Shown piece after piece: positions 18,657-26,532 of a stretch of 64,000 nucleotides of DNA. A program made the position numbers and the translations under genes. Below the pieces are notes generated by a model. That model worked only from the letters and a program-made list of their open reading frames with translations. It was not told the origin of the DNA and ran no database searches. Numbering within the stretch: position 1 is the first letter of the stretch; every line of letters begins with the position of its first letter. Source of the stretch: Amycolatopsis sp. WQ 127309. GTDB taxonomy: Bacteria > Actinomycetota > Actinomycetes > Mycobacteriales > Pseudonocardiaceae. The stretch spans positions 7,081,001 to 7,145,000 of the forward strand of contig NZ_CP095481.1 in NCBI RefSeq assembly GCF_023023025.1. The letters are read 5' to 3'.

Positions 18657-20060
18657 TTAGTCAGATGTTCCGCCGCTCCGTGTTGCACTGTCCGCCCGCT
18701 GAACGGCCGCCACTTCGAGTACGTCGCCACGGGCGAGAAGGCCGTGTTCGGAGCAGGTGAAGCAAGTCGGGTCTCGCCGCGACTGCTGGCGCACTTGGTT
18801 GCCGCTGCGGGGAAAGTGGAGGAATGAGTGCTCGCCACCGTCGTTGTGAAGGTTGGTGACCGCGAACATGAAGTGGTTGACGGCGGCGCTGGCGGCGATG
18901 CCGTTGAGCGCGATGACGCTGGGTGCGGGAATGTCCTCGACGTAGCGGGCGTGCTCACGAACGTGGTCCGGCAGCATGTCCAACGCGAGCTCGGTCGGGT
19001 TGATCAGGCTGTTGCACCACATGCAGCCACTGGCGGGGATCAGCTGGCGGATCGCGACGTGGATGCGGCCGATCGCGCCGGCATCGTCGACGGGGACCTT
19101 CACCCCGGCTTGGGTGGCCGGGATCAGGTACTGATGGACGGCCCGGTCGACCCAGTGCCGAGCGGCGCTCGTGTCGGCGGCGAGGAAGATCCAGTCGCAT
19201 GTCGCGAGGGCTCGGCGGGCGTCGGGGTGCTGCACCTCCTCGTTGATGACGGTGAGTCCGATGCCGGGATTGGCGCGGCGGGCGTTGCGGACGGCGAGCT
19301 CGGTCTTGCGCCTGTCGACGTCATCGGAGCGCGCGGCGACGAGTCGCGGCAGGTTGGTCTCGTCGACGGTGTCGGCGTCGATGAGGACGAGGTGGCCGAC
19401 ACCGAGCCTGGCGAGGAGCTCGGTGACGATTGAGCCGACTCCGCCGAGACCGACGACGGCGACCCGCATCCGCGCGAACGCCTGTTGACCTCGGTCGCCG
19501 AACAAGCGGGCCTGTCGGTCGTGTCGGGCGTCGCTGGTCGAGACCGGGGTCGGCGCGGGGGTGAGGCGGATGAGGTTCCCGCCGGGGATGACGACCTCGG
19601 CGAGCGTGTCGCGGGTGCCGTCGGGAAGCCACAGGTCTCCTGCTGCGGCGCCAGGGGTGAAGACGAGGCCGCCGACGAGCTGCTTGGTGATCTTGCTCAG
19701 GGCGGGATAGCCGCGCTCGTGGCTCGCGAGGTCGATGGGGGAGAAGCTGACCGACGTGGTGCCGAAGTGGTTGTGGACCGCGAGGTAGGCGAGCTGCTCG
19801 CCACGGGCGCGCAAGGCGGAGTCGCGCACGAACTCGGGTCGGAGGGCGCGGTAGCCGGTGGTGCCGGCGACGTAGTCGATGCCGTCTTCGGCGAGTAGGA
19901 GCTCGCGGGCGAGCAATCGCTGCCCGCGGGGGCCGTCGGCATGTCCGGCGAGGATGACGGCGCCGTGCTCGTCGCCGTCGTCGCGGAACAGGTGCTGGGT
20001 GAGGTCGGCCCAGAGCCGGGGTGGAGCGGTGAGGCTCCAGGCCGGCGCGGGCGGATTCAC
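18657..20060 (-). CDS. JAMM (JAB) isopeptidase - E1-like ThiF adenylyltransferase fusion
   Basis: A 467-residue fusion. Residues 1 to about 165 form a JAB/MPN+ domain with the metal-site pattern Glu 31 (EHGAVILAG), His 96 and His 98 (VHNHF) and S-x-x-D at 107-110, normally a Zn-dependent deubiquitinase. Residues from about 195 form a ThiF/MoeB/E1 domain: GLGGVGS (204-210), IDAD (Asp 228, Asp 230), NLPR (236-239), and two CxxC pairs (346/349, 433/436) likely holding zinc. No cysteine lies between 349 and 433, where the E1 thioester cysteine is usually found. The GTG at 20060 overlaps the stop of the E2-like gene by four bases. Last gene of a coupled three-gene operon. Confidence 0.85.
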   Translation of the reverse strand: MNPPAPAWSLTAPPRLWADLTQHLFRDDGDEHGAVILAGHADGPRGQRLLARELLLAEDGIDYVAGTTGYRALRPEFVRDSALRARGEQLAYLAVHNHFGTTSVSFSPIDLASHERGYPALSKITKQLVGGLVFTPGAAAGDLWLPDGTRDTLAEVVIPGGNLIRLTPAPTPVSTSDARHDRQARLFGDRGQQAFARMRVAVVGLGGVGSIVTELLARLGVGHLVLIDADTVDETNLPRLVAARSDDVDRRKTELAVRNARRANPGIGLTVINEEVQHPDARRALATCDWIFLAADTSAARHWVDRAVHQYLIPATQAGVKVPVDDAGAIGRIHVAIRQLIPASGCMWCNSLINPTELALDMLPDHVREHARYVEDIPAPSVIALNGIAASAAVNHFMFAVTNLHNDGGEHSFLHFPRSGNQVRQQSRRDPTCFTCSEHGLLARGDVLEVAAVQRADSATRSGGTSD

Positions 20061-20443
20061 GCCTTGGTGAACCACGAGATCACCTTCTCGGCCTTGAGCG
20101 CGGCGTTGTCGAGGCGCGGCCTCACGGTGGCGGAGCGGCGCGAGAGCTGCAGGGCGGCCCGGCCGTTCCAGTCGACCGGCTGGACGGCTTGGCCGTGGGC
20201 CTGCCCGTCTGTGCGGCTGACCCGCGCGATGTAGTGCGGATAGACGTCGGCTTGGGGGTAGGCCGAGCTGACGTGGAAGCCGAGCCAGCTGGTGCGGGGC
20301 GTGTAGTGGTCGCCGAGGTCGACGTCGTCGACGACGAGGGTGGCGCCGCCGGCGCCGTCCGGGACGACTTCGACCGGTTTCCCGGCGAAGTGCGCCCGGA
20401 CGGCGGCGACGGCTGCCTCGACCTCGGTGGTCAAGGCGGTCAC
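20057..20443 (-). CDS. E2/UBC-like protein of a bacterial ubiquitin-like operon
   Basis: A 128-residue protein between the ubiquitin-like gene and the JAMM-E1 fusion, the usual place of a prokaryotic E2-family member. The sequence shows an N-terminal helix, strands (EVVPDG, ATLVVDDV), YTPRTSWLGFHVSSAYPQADVYPHY and WNGRAALQLSRRS, compatible with a UBC-like fold of the short prokaryotic E2 families. The assignment rests on context plus this general pattern. It has no cysteine anywhere, so a thioester-forming E2 mechanism is impossible as written. Its GTG start overlaps the ubiquitin-like stop by four bases (GTGA), and its own stop overlaps the next start in the same way. Confidence 0.6.
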   Translation of the reverse strand: MTALTTEVEAAVAAVRAHFAGKPVEVVPDGAGGATLVVDDVDLGDHYTPRTSWLGFHVSSAYPQADVYPHYIARVSRTDGQAHGQAVQPVDWNGRAALQLSRRSATVRPRLDNAALKAEKVISWFTKA

Positions 20444-20718
20444 GAGTTGTCGTCCGCGGCGACGGCGACGAACTCGTCGTGCTCGTGGACCGTGATCACC
20501 TCGTCGTCGTCGACGACGTGGAAGCGGTGACCGCGCTTGACCGACAGCTGGAAGCCGACCTGCAGGTCAGCGCCCTGCTCGACGGCCACGGCCTTGATCT
20601 GCGCACCGCTGAGCCGGTGCTCGGAGAGGACCACCCGGTCGTCGTTGACCGTGACGGAGATCCGAACCGGAGGCTGGTCGTGGTGGCCGGGAGCATGGCG
20701 CTCGCTGGTGGTGGACAT
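20440..20718 (-). CDS. Ubiquitin-like beta-grasp protein (multiubiquitin family, single domain)
   Basis: A 92-residue protein. After a disordered His/Pro-rich start (about 20 residues) comes one beta-grasp domain: VRISVTVNDDRVVLSEHRLSG, then AQIKAVAVEQGADL (helix), HRFHVVDDDEVITVHEHDEFVAV. This matches the bacterial multiubiquitin pattern, which usually has tandem copies. The C-terminus ends in acidic residues and Asn-Ser; there is no Gly-Gly tail to be adenylated. AAGGAG selects ATG 20718. First gene of the operon, transcribed leftward from the operator region at 20786-20843. Confidence 0.72.
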   Translation of the reverse strand: MSTTSERHAPGHHDQPPVRISVTVNDDRVVLSEHRLSGAQIKAVAVEQGADLQVGFQLSVKRGHRFHVVDDDEVITVHEHDEFVAVAADDNS

Positions 20719-20785
20719 GACGTTCTCCTTGCGCTGGGGCCTGGCGCACACCTTCGGGGGTTAGGTGTGCCTACATTCACTCGAT

Positions 20786-20843
20786 GCTCGACATGTCGAA
20801 CACTTGTGATCAACGGTAGCATTGGTGCTCGACTTGTCAAACA
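20786..20843. promoter_or_regulatory. Two copies of GCTCGAC-W-TGTC-R-AACA in the divergent promoter
   Basis: Copies at 20786-20802 and 20827-20843 match at 15 of 17 positions and begin 41 bp apart. The first contains the perfect palindrome TCGACATGTCGA (20788-20799). They lie between the ubiquitin-like operon and the XRE gene and are likely XRE operators controlling both sides. Confidence 0.7.
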
Positions 20844-20885
20844 ATGAGCGACAGACGAAGACGATCAGCAGGAACAGGAGCCCGC

Positions 20886-21269
20886 GTGGCCAATGCGAGC
20901 ATCGACGTGATCGCTCTACACGGGGCGCTGGACGCGGCCCGGGAGGCCAGGGAGCTGTCGTGGCGCCAGCTGGCCAAGCTGCTCGACGTCAGCCCGTCGA
21001 CGATGTCGAGGTTGGCGAACGGGAAAAACCCGGACGTCGACGCGTTCGCCGCGATGGTGCGGTGGCTCGATGTCCCGGCCGAGAAGTTCATGATCGACGA
21101 CGTGGAGCTGCAACGGCGAACCGCGGAGCCGCCTGACTTGGTGGCCGAGCTCGCGCCCCTGCTGCGGGCCCGCCCGGATCTGCAGCCGCAGGACGTCGAG
21201 CACTTGGAGCAGCTGATCGGCTCGGCGGTGCGCCGCTTCAACGCCGACCGGCAGGCGCAGGCGGACTGA
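20886..21269 (+). CDS. XRE-family HTH regulator
   Basis: About 127 residues. The HTH is ELSWRQLAKLLDVSPSTMSRLANGKNPDVDAF (near residues 20-50), followed by a dimerising helix and a C-terminal acidic/Leu-rich tail (ELAPLLRARPDLQPQDVEHLEQLIG). AGGAG five bases upstream selects GTG 20886, though an in-frame ATG at 20844 right after the second operator copy could serve as a leaderless start. Three bases separate it from the ImmA/IrrE gene. Together they form the usual repressor plus peptidase pair, divergent from the ubiquitin-like operon. Confidence 0.88.
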   Translation: MANASIDVIALHGALDAAREARELSWRQLAKLLDVSPSTMSRLANGKNPDVDAFAAMVRWLDVPAEKFMIDDVELQRRTAEPPDLVAELAPLLRARPDLQPQDVEHLEQLIGSAVRRFNADRQAQAD

Positions 21270-21272
21270 GCC

Positions 21273-21848
21273 ATGGGAACGCGGTGGACTCAGGCAGAGA
21301 TGCGGAAGGTCGCCGCGGAAGAGCGAGCGGGTCTCGGGCTGTCCCGGCTCGCGCCCCTGGATCCGTACCTGCTCGCCGAGGAGCACGGCATCCGGGTCTA
21401 CCCGATCGACGAGCTCGGGGATTGTGCCCAGGCCAACGCCGCGATCCGGTACTACACGTCCGTGCGCTCGAAGATCTGGTCGGCCGCCATCATTCCCGTC
21501 GGAAACAGCCGGATCATCATCGAGAACACGGCGCACTCCGAGGCGCGTCGATGTGCCAGCCTGGCTCACGAGCTGGCGCACCATCTGCTCGAGCACGAGT
21601 TCGCCGAGCTGCTGTTGGGGGAAGACGGTTGCCGGCACTTCGATCCCGCGAAGGAGAAGGAAGCCAAGTACCTCTCGGGGCAGTTGCTGATCCCCGACGA
21701 GGCCGCGAAGCGTGCGGCGTTCGACAACAAGACCAACGCCCAGGTCGCCGAAACCTACGGCGTAAGCGAGCAGTTCGCTCAGATGCGGATGTCCGGTGTG
21801 CGCGTGATGGCGCAGCACGCCCTCGCGAAACAGGCCCGCTTTCGCTAG
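21273..21848 (+). CDS. ImmA/IrrE-family metallopeptidase
   Basis: A 191-residue zinc peptidase with the active-site motif HELAH at residues 99-103 (AHELAHHLLEHEF) and a following Glu. The N-terminal part (LGLSRLAPLDPYLLAEEHGIRVYPIDEL) and the C-terminal NAQVAETYGVSEQFAQMRM are typical of the family. ImmA/IrrE proteins cleave a cognate XRE repressor to induce mobile or defence genes; the cognate repressor here should be the XRE protein just upstream. The expected result of cleavage is derepression of the divergent ubiquitin-like operon (inference). Confidence 0.9.
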   Translation: MGTRWTQAEMRKVAAEERAGLGLSRLAPLDPYLLAEEHGIRVYPIDELGDCAQANAAIRYYTSVRSKIWSAAIIPVGNSRIIIENTAHSEARRCASLAHELAHHLLEHEFAELLLGEDGCRHFDPAKEKEAKYLSGQLLIPDEAAKRAAFDNKTNAQVAETYGVSEQFAQMRMSGVRVMAQHALAKQARFR

Positions 21849-22374
21849 CAAGCCGCGCTCCGACGACTTCCGGCGGCAGATGAAGGACACCGGCGCGCTG
21901 TCCAGGTGCAGCTCACCGCCTACGGCCCGACCCTGCTCGAGCGGACCGCCGTGCGCTCGGCCACCGCGGTCCGTCACCCCGGGCACGGCGACCAGAAACA
22001 ACGTCGGGAGGTTCTCCGCCGCGCTGATCGCCGGCGCCTACGAGCCGCTGGACGTGCCCGGCGAGGTCTTGACCATCGACGCGACCGTCCGGCTGCGGTG
22101 TCCCTCGACGACCTCGCGGCGCAGCTGGCCGCGTTGTTCACCGCACGACGCACCCGCCCACCGCGCCGCGGACCTGAGCAATGTGTCAGGCTCTGCGGCC
22201 TCGCCACGAGCGTGCGTCCGTCTGCTGCTCGACCTCGATCGTGTCGAACTTCGCCGCCTGTGAACGGTTAAGGCAGAGAGGGTGTGGCCAGGTCAGGAGT
22301 GGGCTCATGGGTGCTCGGCGAAGGCGGTAGCTTGGACCTGGGTATCACACTGGGGGATCGGCTGGAGGCGGAGA
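21849..22374 (+). pseudogene. Decayed coding remnant, not identified
   Basis: Coding-like segments switch frame: VQLTAYGPTLLERTAVRSA in one frame, NNVGRFSAALIAGAYEPL with DVPGEVLTIDATVRL in the next, then VSLDDLAAQLAALFTA. Each looks like protein with actinomycete codon use, but no single frame carries them all, so this is probably a frameshifted and truncated gene. The family was not recognised. The last 100 bp before 22375 hold no gene. Confidence 0.35.
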
Positions 22375-22752
22375 GTGCGTGACGAGGACATCGTCGCCGC
22401 GGCGCGGGAGATCCGAGACGAGTGGGTGGCGCTTCCCGTTGCCCGGCAGGTGGACGGCTTGCTGGCCCGGACTGACGCCGGCGAGCCGGTGGCCGACGAG
22501 ATTCTCCGGCTGCTGACCGCGGAGCCCGGGCTCCGGATGGCGTTGCGCCGACGGCTGCCGAAGGAGCCTGACACGACCCGGGCGACCGAGTCGGTGGGCA
22601 CGTACACACACTTGCCTGGGCGAGGTGAGCCTTCGGCCGTCCTTCGATACGGCTGTGCGGACTGCGGCTACGAGTATCCGGTGTTCGAGGTCGGCGAGCC
22701 GGTTCCCGAGCGGTGCCCGCGCGGGCACGGCCCGCTGACGGCGGCCGGGTGA
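22375..22752 (+). CDS. Small zinc-ribbon protein of the CHAT module
   Basis: About 125 residues. The N-terminal two-thirds is helical ([41 protein letters not shown]). The C-terminal third is a zinc-ribbon-like unit with [11 protein letters not shown] and a second pair in [12 protein letters not shown] 22375 follows GGAGGCGGAGA and gives the natural start. The gene is 7 bp upstream of the membrane-protein gene and probably opens the three-gene unit ending in the TPR-CHAT protein. I do not recognise a characterised family; an adaptor or sensor role is possible. Confidence 0.7.
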
Positions 22753-22759
22753 AGCCGGC

Positions 22760-23644
22760 GTGCTGACCGGGATGTGGTCGGGGCTGGGCGGCAAGGTCGC
22801 CGACCGGTGGGCGAGCCTGCTGCTCTCGCCCGCCCTCGTGTTCTGGATCGGCGGGGTGCTGGCGTGGACCGGCAGCCGGGACCTCGGGAGCCGGTGGCAG
22901 GAGACGCTCGGCGGTACGACGTCCGCGACGCAGGTGCTCCTCGCCGTGGCGGCGCTGCTGCTCGTCGCGGGCTCGGCCCGGCTCGCTGACCTCGTCACCC
23001 CCGGCGTCCTACGGACGCTCGAAGGCTACTGGCCGGCGTGGGCCGGCCCGCTCCGGACACTGCTGGTGCGGCTGCGAGGGCGCCGCATCAGCCGCCGGCA
23101 GGAGCGCTGGCGGGAACTGGCCCGGCGGACCGACCTGACCGCGGGTGACCGCACACGTTATGCGGCGTTGAATGCTTGGCGCGCAAGCATTCCCGCCGAC
23201 CCCCACGACCGCATGCCGACGCGGCTGGGCAACGTACTGAAGGCGGCCGAAACCCGCTCAAGGCACCGCTACGGGCTCGACGCCGTCGTGTGCTGGCCGC
23301 GGCTGTGGCTGGTCATGCCGGACTCTGCGCGCGCCGAAGTCACCGCGGCCCGGTCGCGGCTGGACGAGGGAGCGCGGCTCTGGCTGTGGAGCCTGCTCTT
23401 CGTGGTGTGGACGCCGTTCAGCTGGTGGGCTCTCGTGCCCGCGCTGCTGGGGATGGTCGCCGGCAACCGCGTCACGCTCGCCGCCGCGTCGACGTACGGG
23501 CAGCTGGTCCAGAGCTGCTACGACCTCTACCGCACCGACCTCTACACGGCGCTGGGCGTCAAGCCCGCCGAGGGGCGTGAGTTCGGGGAGCGGGTGACCG
23601 CCCACCTCGAGCGCGGCGCTCCGTTGCCGGCGGACCCGGAATGA
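22760..23644 (+). CDS. Membrane protein of the CHAT module
   Basis: A 294-residue protein with two N-terminal membrane segments ([19 protein letters not shown], about 20-38; [17 protein letters not shown], about 60-77). A cytosolic Arg-rich region (about 100-200) and a hydrophobic hairpin near 207-243 ([28 protein letters not shown]) follow. A short C-terminal tail remains. The stop overlaps the CHAT start by ATGA, so translation is coupled. No enzyme motif is visible. A membrane anchor or pore partner for the CHAT protein is the most natural reading of the context, unproven. Confidence 0.75.
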
Positions 23645-26532
23645 GCGCGGCGGAAAGGCTGGGCTGGCGCCCGATCCCGGACGTCCCCCGCCGGTTCCGG
23701 CGGTTGCTGGACAAGGCCGACGACGCACTGGGCCACCACCTCGACGACGGTGAGTCCGCCGGCCTGACCGTGCTCGTCGAGATTCTGGACCGGCTCGTCG
23801 CCGACCGGCGGTTCGCGTCCGGCAGCCCGGCTTTCCAGCAGGCGGTGCTCAACCGGGCGTCGATCGCCCACAACTGGCGCGGGATCAATACCGGGAAGAT
23901 CGCCGACATCGAGACCTCGGTCGACCTGCTCACCGAGGGACTTCGGCTCGCGCCGGACGGCAGTCCGGAGCAGGCCCGGATGGAGTGCAACCTCGGCAGC
24001 TCCTTCATTCACCTTTACAGGGAATACGGCGATGCGGAGTTCCTCGTCCGCGCCACCGGGCACCTGCGGCGGAGTATGGCCGCGGCGGGCGACGATGCCA
24101 CGCTCCTCGCGCTGGGCCGTTCTCACCTGGGCTCCGTGCTGCAGGCCCAGTTCATCGCGAGTGGCGAGGCAGCCCTCCTGACTGAGGCTGTCCACCTCGC
24201 CGAGCTGTGCATGTCGGAAGCCCCCGCCCGGTTCGACTACCGGTACAGCCTGGCGAAGCTGCTGTTCACCCGGTACACCGTCCACGGTGCGCTCGACGAC
24301 CTCGACCGGGCCATCACCCTGCTGCGTGAAGCGACGGGCAAGCCCGGTCCTGACGGGGTCGCCCGGAACAGCACGGACCACGGCGCGTCGCTGGGCATGT
24401 ACTTGCGCGACCGGTATCTCCGGACCCGGTCCCCGGCTGATCTGGCAGAGGCGATCCAGCTGCTCCAGGATGACGTGGACCTGGGCGAAGACGGTGAGCC
24501 GACGGCTGTGGACAGTCTGGGCAGCGCGTTGTTGACCCGCTATCACGACTTCGGCGACGAGAGCGACGTGCACGCCGCGATCGACCTGCACCGGCTGGAT
24601 CTGGCGCGCAGTTCCCCGGGTAACTGGCAGCTGGCCGCCACGCACAACAACCTCGCCAACGCATTGGAAACACTGAGCCGGATCACGGGTGACCCCGAGA
24701 CCGGTGCGGAAGCAGTCGAGCACTACCGCTCCTCCTTGCGTCTCACGTCCGGCACCGCGCCGAACCGCACATCTCGGTCGTACAACCTCGGGCGCCTCCT
24801 GCAAGCCCAAAGCGACCGGTCCGGCGACACGGCGACGGCCGCGGAGGCCGTGGGGTTCTACCGGGATGCCCTGCGCCACGGGCTGGAGAGCTCCCTGGAG
24901 TGGGCGCTGTCCGCGGGCCGCGCCTGGGGTGACTGGGCCACCCGGCGGGAAAGGTGGGACGAGGCGTGCACGGCCTACGAGAGCGCGTTGGAGGCGACCC
25001 GCCGGCTGTTCCGCACGCAGGTGCTGCGCGAAGACCGCGAGACGTGGCTGGCGGAGTCCCAAGGACTTCCCGCCGCCGCGGCCTACGCGATGTTTCGCGC
25101 CGGCCGGCTCGAAGACGCCGTCCTGGCCCTGGAATCGGGCCGCAGCCTGCTGCTGTCCGAGGTCCTGGAGCGTGAACGGATCGAGCTGGACGGGCTGGCC
25201 GGCACCGAGCACGCCGATCTGGTCCGGCGCTACCGGGTGGCGACCACGGCGCTGGACGGCGCGCTGTGGCAGGGCGCCGAGTCGCGCGTCCTGCGTGCGC
25301 ACCGCGAAGCGATCGACGAGGTGATCGACGGGATCCGCGGAGTTCCCGGCTACGAACGTTTCCTTCGCGCGCCCACCATCTCCGACGTCCGCGACGTGAT
25401 CACCGACGGCACGGTCGTGGTCTACGTCGCCGCCGCAGGTCCGGCCGGGGTGGCCCTCGGCGTCGGCTCCGGTGGAGACGTCCGGGCGGTCGAGCTGCCC
25501 TCGGCCACCGCCGCCGCGGTCCAGCAGCGGGCGAACGTGTTGCTCGAGTCTCGCCGCGGGATGGTTTCGAGGGGCGGTGCCTGGGAAGGAACGCTGGACG
25601 CCGTCACGCGCTGGGCGTGGCCGGCGATCATGGCGCCGGTGAGGTTGCTCGCTGGGACCGCCCAGCGGATCGTGCTGGTGCCGTCGGGAAGAGTCACGAT
25701 GCTGCCCCTGCACGCGGCGTGGACACCGGAGCGGGACGGTCGCCGGTACGCGCTCGACGACCAGGTGGTGACCTACGCGCCGACCGCCCGCAGCCTCAGT
25801 GTCACCGACCGGATCGCCGCTCGCACCCCGGCCACGCGTCTGGCCGTGATCGCCGACCCGCGGCCCAGCGCGTGGGAGCCGATCGGGTACACCCGCGCCG
25901 AAACCGCGTGGGCCCGTCACTGGTTCCCGACGTCCGATGTGCTGGCCGGCGAGCAGGCGAACTTCCCGGCCGTGCGCGCCGCCCTGACCACCGCCGACGT
26001 CCACCACTTCATCTGCCACGGAAAGGCCCACCCGGACGAGCCGCTGAAGAGCGCGCTCGTCCTGGCCGGCGACGACGAGCTAACCCTGCGCGAAATCCTC
26101 GCGCTCCGGCTCGCCGACACCGGGCCGGGCGTCCGGCTCGCCGTCCTGTCCGCCTGCGACACCGATCAGCCGGGAAGCGTGCTACCGGACGAGGTCATCA
26201 GCCTGCCCACCGGCCTCATCCAGGCGGGGGTCGCAGGTGTCGTCGCGACGCGGTGGGCTGTCCGCAGCGAGGCTGTCAGCTTGCTCCTGGCGCGGTTTTA
26301 CCAGCTGTGGCGAGCCGAAGGGCGGGAGCCCGCATCGGCATTGCAGGCCGCCCAACGCTGGCTCAGGGACACAACGAACGGTGAGAAGGCGCGTGACCTG
26401 GCCGCCGCGATCACTCCGATCGCGGATCCTGACCTGGTCGGCCTGGTCCGCGCGCTGTACCTGCGTGACCCGGACGAGCGGGCCTACCGGCACCCCGCCG
26501 ACTGGGCCGCGCTCAGTTACCACGGGTCTTAG
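23641..26532 (+). CDS. TPR-CHAT (caspase-like) protease
   Basis: A 963-residue protein. Residues about 1-480 are helical repeats of the tetratricopeptide type (for example [28 protein letters not shown], split by repeat breaks, and [15 protein letters not shown]). The C-terminal 400 residues form a CHAT domain with catalytic His 793 ([12 protein letters not shown]) and Cys 839 ([11 protein letters not shown]), and a [15 protein letters not shown] strand. CHAT proteases act in bacterial defence, as in the gasdermin and type III CRISPR-linked systems. Here the neighbours are a zinc-ribbon and a membrane protein; no gasdermin or Cas gene is near. Part of the 3' end occurs again at about 61.8 kb. 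Confidence 0.88.

Follow-up and report, generated by a model that had tools for sequence, protein, structure and literature searches.

A Bub-type ubiquitin-like operon of Amycolatopsis in a clade with serine-tailed ubiquitin-like proteins and a serine at the likely E2 acceptor position

The 64,000-nucleotide stretch analysed here (hereafter the window; Amycolatopsis sp. WQ 127309, contig NZ_CP095481.1, positions 7,081,001 to 7,145,000) lies in a single-contig genome of 11.13 Mb and carries three overlapping minus-strand genes at positions 18657-20718, which encode, in that order, a ubiquitin-like protein (Ubl), an E2-like protein and a fusion of a JAMM protease with an adenylating E1 (JAMM-E1). 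This is a Bub-type operon. As judged from 55 operons, three of its features are new: an E2 position, S101 in the window, that is either Ser or Cys; the lack of a conserved E1 cysteine between the two CxxC pairs; and a clade in which the Ubl ends in serine. We consider it probable that this Ser-tailed clade has a Bub-type conjugation pathway made up of E1 adenylation, an oxyester at E2 Ser101, removal by JAMM and silencing by a CapH/CapP-like pair. The stricter proposal, that the clade is a distinct and widely spread Bub branch in which a Ser-ended Ubl is conjugated through a Ser-oxyester E2 by an E1 lacking a covalent Cys step, with neither a catalytic cysteine nor a terminal glycine, has in our estimate an even chance of being right.

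The best matches of the three proteins were Citrobacter Bub or multi-ubiquitin chains: for the E1 by sequence, for the E2 by profile and fold, and for the Ubl by fold. Structures of Citrobacter BubA, BubB and BubCD are available (PDB 9ea4, 9ea5, 9ea8, 9eae, 9eav). The window Ubl is of the Multi_ubiq type; it matched PF14452 above the cut-off (E 3.6e-8, 33.9 bits against 24.5), and its AlphaFold2 model, with a mean pLDDT (predicted local distance difference test score) of 80.6 and 39 for the last block of residues, matched multi-ubiquitin proteins, the best PDB fold match being Citrobacter multi-ubiquitin 9d5a (E 5.6e-4). The E2 model matched UBC-type folds, and BubB was best in both the fold and the profile searches. 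The first-pass annotation would have been refuted by small-protein folds unrelated to beta-grasp and UBC; the models match both folds, and this refutation failed. The Pfam model PF14462 itself misses the window E2; it matched 16 of 26 relatives at E values up to 1 (best 3.7e-6), and a search of the own genome with it found no match anywhere, not even in the controls, and carries no weight. A match of the E2 to SIV/HIV-2 protease (E 3.7e-4 with the single sequence, 0.011 with the profile) spans about 40 residues and was rejected; no such protease is among the 50 fold matches listed.

The fusion matched ThiF PF00899 at E 1.8e-39, and its closest solved relative is Citrobacter BubCD (PDB 9ea4, E 3.7e-25 over residues 16-398). 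In the 467-residue numbering JAMM occupies residues ~16-170 and the adenylating E1 ~178-467. The JAMM half has no Pfam match, and its assignment rests on the motif and on the alignment with BubCD. The JAMM residues (E31, H96, H98, S107, D110) and the E1 adenylation residues (G204/G206/G207/G209, D228, N236, R239, K252) are present in the window and conserved in the alignments, in agreement with the earlier view that the metal ligands and the ATP site are kept. The best-scoring NCBIfam models of the E1 are of the ThiF/MoeB type, which would fit a Ubl-based sulfur carrier or biosynthetic E1 of the ThiS/MoaD kind rather than a tagging system, yet the scores listed are far below the curated cut-offs and the assignment was not adopted. 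With a JAMM fusion and an E2 partner present, and with BubCD as the closest solved relative, we regard the sulfur-carrier explanation as very improbable. The three genes thus form one ubiquitin-like machine, as had been expected, of the Bub type by sequence, profile and fold. Two other E1-like places in the own genome (L002, L003) are partial matches only.

The Ubl gene (20440..20718, minus strand; BubA type) encodes 92 amino acids with one Multi_ubiq domain and the tail ADDNS, whose terminal Ser codon is at 20443-20445. The E2-like gene (20057..20443, minus strand; BubB type) encodes 128 amino acids without Cys, and the codon of S101, the proposed nucleophile, is at 20141-20143. The JAMM-E1 gene (18657..20075, minus strand; BubCD type) encodes 472 amino acids from GTG 20075 or 467 from GTG 20060. 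Two GTGA overlaps had been claimed to join the genes. The first, at 20440-20443, stands: it joins the Ubl stop to the GTG start of the E2, and the G of the last Ubl Ser codon doubles as the first base of that GTG. The second, between E2 and E1, requires an E1 start at 20060 and is doubtful, because in 18 of 22 homologues the start is recorded five residues earlier, corresponding to GTG 20075. For the same reason the E1 probably has 472 amino acids, its gene sharing 19 bases with that of the E2; the stretch GAAGGTGA lies just upstream of GTG 20075.

The first-pass annotation had pointed out three absences, and the sequences bear out each of them: the Ubl tail ADDNS has no C-terminal Gly-Gly, the 128-residue E2 translation has no cysteine, and the E1 has none between its CxxC pairs C346/C349 and C433/C436. 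Homologues were found for all three proteins, the named close ones coming from Amycolatopsis. Because the absences are common to the homologues, sequencing error or chance was ruled out as their source; where an aligned Cys does occur in E2 homologues, it is the trait of a lineage. In 70 of 91 close E2s there is no Cys at all, and no column has Cys in more than four of the 91. S101 and S104 are both invariant in this set, and in 15 more diverse E2s only F56, P63, R77 and S101 remain so. Across the 55 loci (those of the E1 tree described below, except that L001 stands for the window in place of L028) 46 E2s have Ser and nine have Cys in the S101 column, identically in three alignment modes. All nine Cys E2s, with the motif GHFCVH, belong to one sister lineage (L048-L056; E1 tree support 100/100) located in further genomes of the taxonomic family to which the window belongs. 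Two of them were tested and both matched PF14462 over the cut-off, and in hhalign the L048 Cys lines up with S101. Because Cys is confined to a single lineage in a column that is otherwise Ser, this column is likely the acyl-acceptor position, switched between Ser and Cys, and thioester transfer is probably not used at the window E2, one of the options raised in the earlier reading. The E2-like protein could instead be a catalytically dead UBC/RWD fold that merely binds the Ubl while the E1 attaches it directly from the adenylate, which we think unlikely; a kept Ser at the very position of the sister-lineage Cys is not expected of a dead scaffold, and an E2 gene or domain is present in 55/55 tree loci.

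In ThiF-type enzymes the thioester Cys sits in the stretch that corresponds to the region between the CxxC pairs of the E1. No Cys at all stands there in 21 of 23 close E1s, the other two (P0107 and P0118) having one each at unrelated places. Among 28 aligned E1s no column of this region has Cys in more than two rows, eight rows having one or two scattered cysteines, and the eight aligned E1 rows of the Cys-E2 lineage have none there. Because no Cys is conserved between the CxxC pairs, transfer from E1 to E2 probably proceeds without an E1 thioester at the ThiF-type place. Y373 is invariant in the close and the wider set (23/23 and 28/28) and was considered as a candidate nucleophile; Ser381 was dropped because its column varies (Ser in 19 of 28, Ala in 9).

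The Ubl tail separates the window clade from its relatives. All 13 proteins of the Ubl set A2, the window included, end in NS, and in the 34 loci of the window clade Ser stands directly before the stop without exception (31 DNS, 3 EDS). The tree was built from the E1s of 55 loci, after fragments or decayed copies (L018, L020, L022, L024, L025, L032, L045, L057) and repeats (L042, L043 and L047, of L026, L007 and L027) had been dropped; the E1 rows of L030 and L061 are identical. In it the Ser-tail clade has support of 100/100, and the tail type requires one change, a number as low being reached in 0/500 shuffles. Its members are Actinomycetota together with plasmids of Nostoc, Deinococcus, Rhizobium and Mesorhizobium. 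Among the 21 other loci all 12 profile-recognised Ubls carry Gly at or near the end, as FG plus 0-4 residues, LG, TTEG, NPG with IRR after it, or a Gly that directly precedes a fused E2. In eight of the nine loci of the Cys-E2 lineage, the small protein before the E2, a Ubl by position only, ends in YG plus 0-6 residues; in L049 no such protein was found. The tree is rooted for drawing only and does not polarise Ser and Gly. A literature search, mostly not aimed at the tail and not covering Ye et al. 2026 and Gong et al. 2025, found no published description of the Ser tail. In L030, L040 and L060-L062 the Ubl has three domains and still ends in DNS or EDS; the number of domains thus varies independently of the tail type.

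The BubA chains of the Citrobacter structures end in ...DVNNG and the BubB chain of 9eae begins with the next residue, which suggests that Ser92 of the window Ubl occupies the position of the Citrobacter terminal Gly. Because the tail looks ready-made, JAMM in the window clade probably acts as a deconjugating enzyme. Alternatively, JAMM trims the Ubl tail here too and the conjugated residue is Asn or Asp, not Ser. In favour of trimming, the JAMM ligands are invariant, and in 10 of 20 Gly-tailed relatives the Gly is followed by an extension or a fused E2; against it, the same terminal Ser is found in all 34 loci with no variation in length, also where the E2 gene does not overlap the Ubl gene (Nostoc, Deinococcus, Rhodococcus, Rhizobium). 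We give tail trimming a low probability, if a somewhat higher one than the dead E2 scaffold. Exposure of the tail by processing, another option of the first-pass annotation, finds no support in this clade, where the Ubl stops at the same Ser every time.

Two regulator-like genes lie beside the operon in divergent orientation. The first (20844..21269, plus strand) encodes an XRE-type helix-turn-helix (HTH) repressor that is CapH-like (HTH_3 E 4.5e-8; PADLOC capH E 1.6e-4, with RmrA better at E 1.4e-8), and the second (21273..21848, plus strand) encodes an M78 (ImmA/IrrE) metallopeptidase that is CapP-like (PF06114 E 3.7e-19; PADLOC capP E 4.6e-12; HELAH motif). An HTH repressor and an M78 peptidase beside an immune-type operon is the layout of a CapH/CapP controller. 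Between the divergent genes are two 18-base palindromes: TGCTCGACATGTCGAACA at 20785..20802, a candidate operator with 8/9 pairs complementary that was reached in 2% of 200 shuffles, and TGCTCGACTTGTCAAACA at 20826..20843, a second candidate operator 89% like the first. A common palindrome pattern with two of 18 positions free was matched at 15-18 positions in 10 of 13 related intergenic regions, a count for which no chance level was computed, and at 14, 11 and 10 positions in those of L017, L027 and L029. Both HTH and M78 genes were seen in 18 of the 34 Ser-tail loci, 15 by similarity to the proteins of the window and L036, L038 and L060 by annotation. In L011, L015 and L039 a RelE/HigA-like pair takes the place of the CapH/CapP-like one; it is annotated in L039, and in L011 and L015 a single protein has both the HTH and the M78 domain. 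By analogy, the divergent pair suggests that the operon may be under DNA-damage control; 219 of 544 Bub operons are reported to adjoin CapW or CapH+CapP, controllers that are released when DNA is damaged (PMC13373217). Apart from the regulators and from what close relatives share, no further gene recurred at a fixed place beside the operon in 25 loci, among the matches listed (at most 14 members of a cluster), which leaves the idea that a partner supplies the missing parts with no support.

The Bub-type sequences and folds, the order of the genes, the column that is Ser or Cys, the clade of Ser-tailed Ubls and the kept catalytic sites are observed; from these we infer the reaction steps, the regulation and a role in defence as follows. 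The E1 domain would adenylate the Ubl C-terminus (...D-N-S-COOH), and the acyl group would pass, directly from the adenylate or via an E1 group, to E2 Ser101 as an oxyester and not a thioester; Ye and co-workers are said to have proposed oxyester chemistry for Bub in 2026. The E2 would then hand the Ubl on to a target, and JAMM would mainly remove it again, because the gene in this clade already ends at the mature tail. The CapH/CapP-like repressor-protease pair would silence the operon until DNA damage, as in phage infection, when cleavage of the repressor by the CapP-like peptidase would release it.

Several observations weigh against this pathway or the Ubl assignment, or weaken the comparison of lineages. 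S104 is as invariant as S101 in the close E2s (91/91), and S101 is singled out by the wider set only. Outside the CxxC stretch, 18 of 28 rows share a Cys in one E1 column; that column varies among the 23 close E1s, whose only invariant cysteines are the four of the CxxC pairs. JAMM Glu31 is present in 19 of these 23. Sequence profiles of the Ubl found no Bub chain in the PDB, and in one run an unrelated rice protein came first (E 0.0019) and multi-ubiquitin followed at 0.026. The YG-ended small proteins (L048, L050-L056) were missed by the broad Ubl profile, no Pfam model matches the four tested, and L049 bears a Gly label in the E1 tree though no Ubl was found there. As ten of the 20 Gly-tailed proteins also lack an extension, a ready-made tail is found outside the Ser clade too. 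The two-gene HTH and M78 layout was not seen in 16 of the 34 Ser-tail loci (one protein, HTH only, M78 only, neither, or incomplete coverage), and shuffling gave a palindrome as good in no more than 3% of trials for 6 of 14 regions and in 12.5-77% for the other eight. PMC13373217 states that protection against phage by Bub operons has yet to be demonstrated, and Iyer et al. 2006 (PMC1779556) interpret the Cys-less E2 as catalytically inactive and RWD-like.

The operon is patchily distributed (all genome counts include the own genome). At E 1e-60 it was found in 3 of 80 genomes of the genus; the family gave 17 of 390 (nine of the Cys-type lineage, six full-length and one partial of the window type, and one 124-position remnant), the class 5 of 394, and the phylum 7 of 396, some of other lineages. 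Among plasmids 268 records matched, and in 85 the match spanned 80% or more of the E1. Viral contigs scanned with two peptide patterns showed no relative, and the matches in ten phage records covered at most 34% of the query. This distribution among genomes and plasmids is consistent with an accessory locus for defence or stress that is passed between hosts. L038 and L057 are decayed copies: in L038 (Deinococcus) the E1 is cut short beside transposase genes, and of L057, in a genome of the genus (G070), only the 124-position E1 remnant is left. The plasmid operons L063, L064, L065 and L067 have an annotated phosphotransferase gene and a DUF6527 gene after the E1, and the phosphotransferase could be an added effector or modifier. 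Elsewhere in the window a CHAT-domain protein (23641-26532, plus strand; PF12770 E 4.4e-52, weak TPR matches) is preceded by a gene for 294 amino acids with no Pfam match (22760-23644) and one whose small product gave a weak zinc-ribbon match (22342-22752); the three could be a separate defence or signalling set.

Operons of this kind were described in 2006 as type 6e, with a polyUbl, an inactive E2/RWD protein, a JAB-E1 and a protein Y, and with one actinobacterial entry (Fsp.) (Iyer et al. 2006, PMC1779556). The window shares with type 6e the gene set and the missing E2 Cys, and differs in the terminal Ser fixed in its clade and in that protein Y was not seen in the window. Because the Cys-less E2 was already noted there, neither the Bub system nor the missing E2 Cys is new. 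Citrobacter Bub has, like the window, a Multi_ubiq Ubl, a PF14462-type E2 with Ser for Cys, a JAMM-E1 fusion and the same gene order. A Bub relative on a Citrobacter freundii plasmid (L041), whose E1 stretch is 83% identical to BubCD, has three Ubl domains fused to the E2 with NNG at the junction, whereas in the window a single Ubl domain with a Ser tail is encoded apart from the E2. Its E1 lacks both CxxC pairs, which the window E1 has, and its operon is preceded by a winged-HTH gene and followed by a DUF6527 gene, in contrast to the CapH/CapP-like pair of the window. DUF6527 is annotated in L041 and in L063-L069; it is not among the nine window proteins scanned with Pfam, nor annotated in eight Ser-tail plasmid loci, whose gene table is incomplete. 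DUF6527 thus accompanies some relatives, and a terminal Gly is common in the other lineages in place of the Ser found in 34/34; neither need be a defining trait of Bub.

Bil (BilABCD) combines Ubl, E2, JAMM and E1 in one operon, the same four functions as in the window, with separate JAMM and E1 genes and a Cys-based E2. The window differs in its JAMM fused to E1 and in an E2 without Cys, and its PADLOC BilD match is only E 1.8e-6; it is not a Bil operon. Type II CBASS (cyclic-oligonucleotide-based antiphage signalling system) has an E2-E1 fusion, Cap2, beside a CD-NTase. Unlike Cap2/Cap3, the E2 and JAMM-E1 of the window are separate genes, no cyclase was found among the nine window proteins scanned with Pfam, and the operon is not of the CBASS type either. 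The textbook account of ubiquitin chemistry is a relay of cysteine thioesters that acts on a terminal glycine; the Ser-tail clade has retained the folds, the adenylation site and the protease, yet has neither the catalytic cysteine nor the terminal glycine. Its sister lineages offer a natural comparison, with Ser or Cys at one E2 position and Ser or Gly at one Ubl position, and the role of each residue can therefore be tested by single swaps. The window clade is a new branch of the known Bub kind, and the comparison set makes the cysteine and glycine rules testable.
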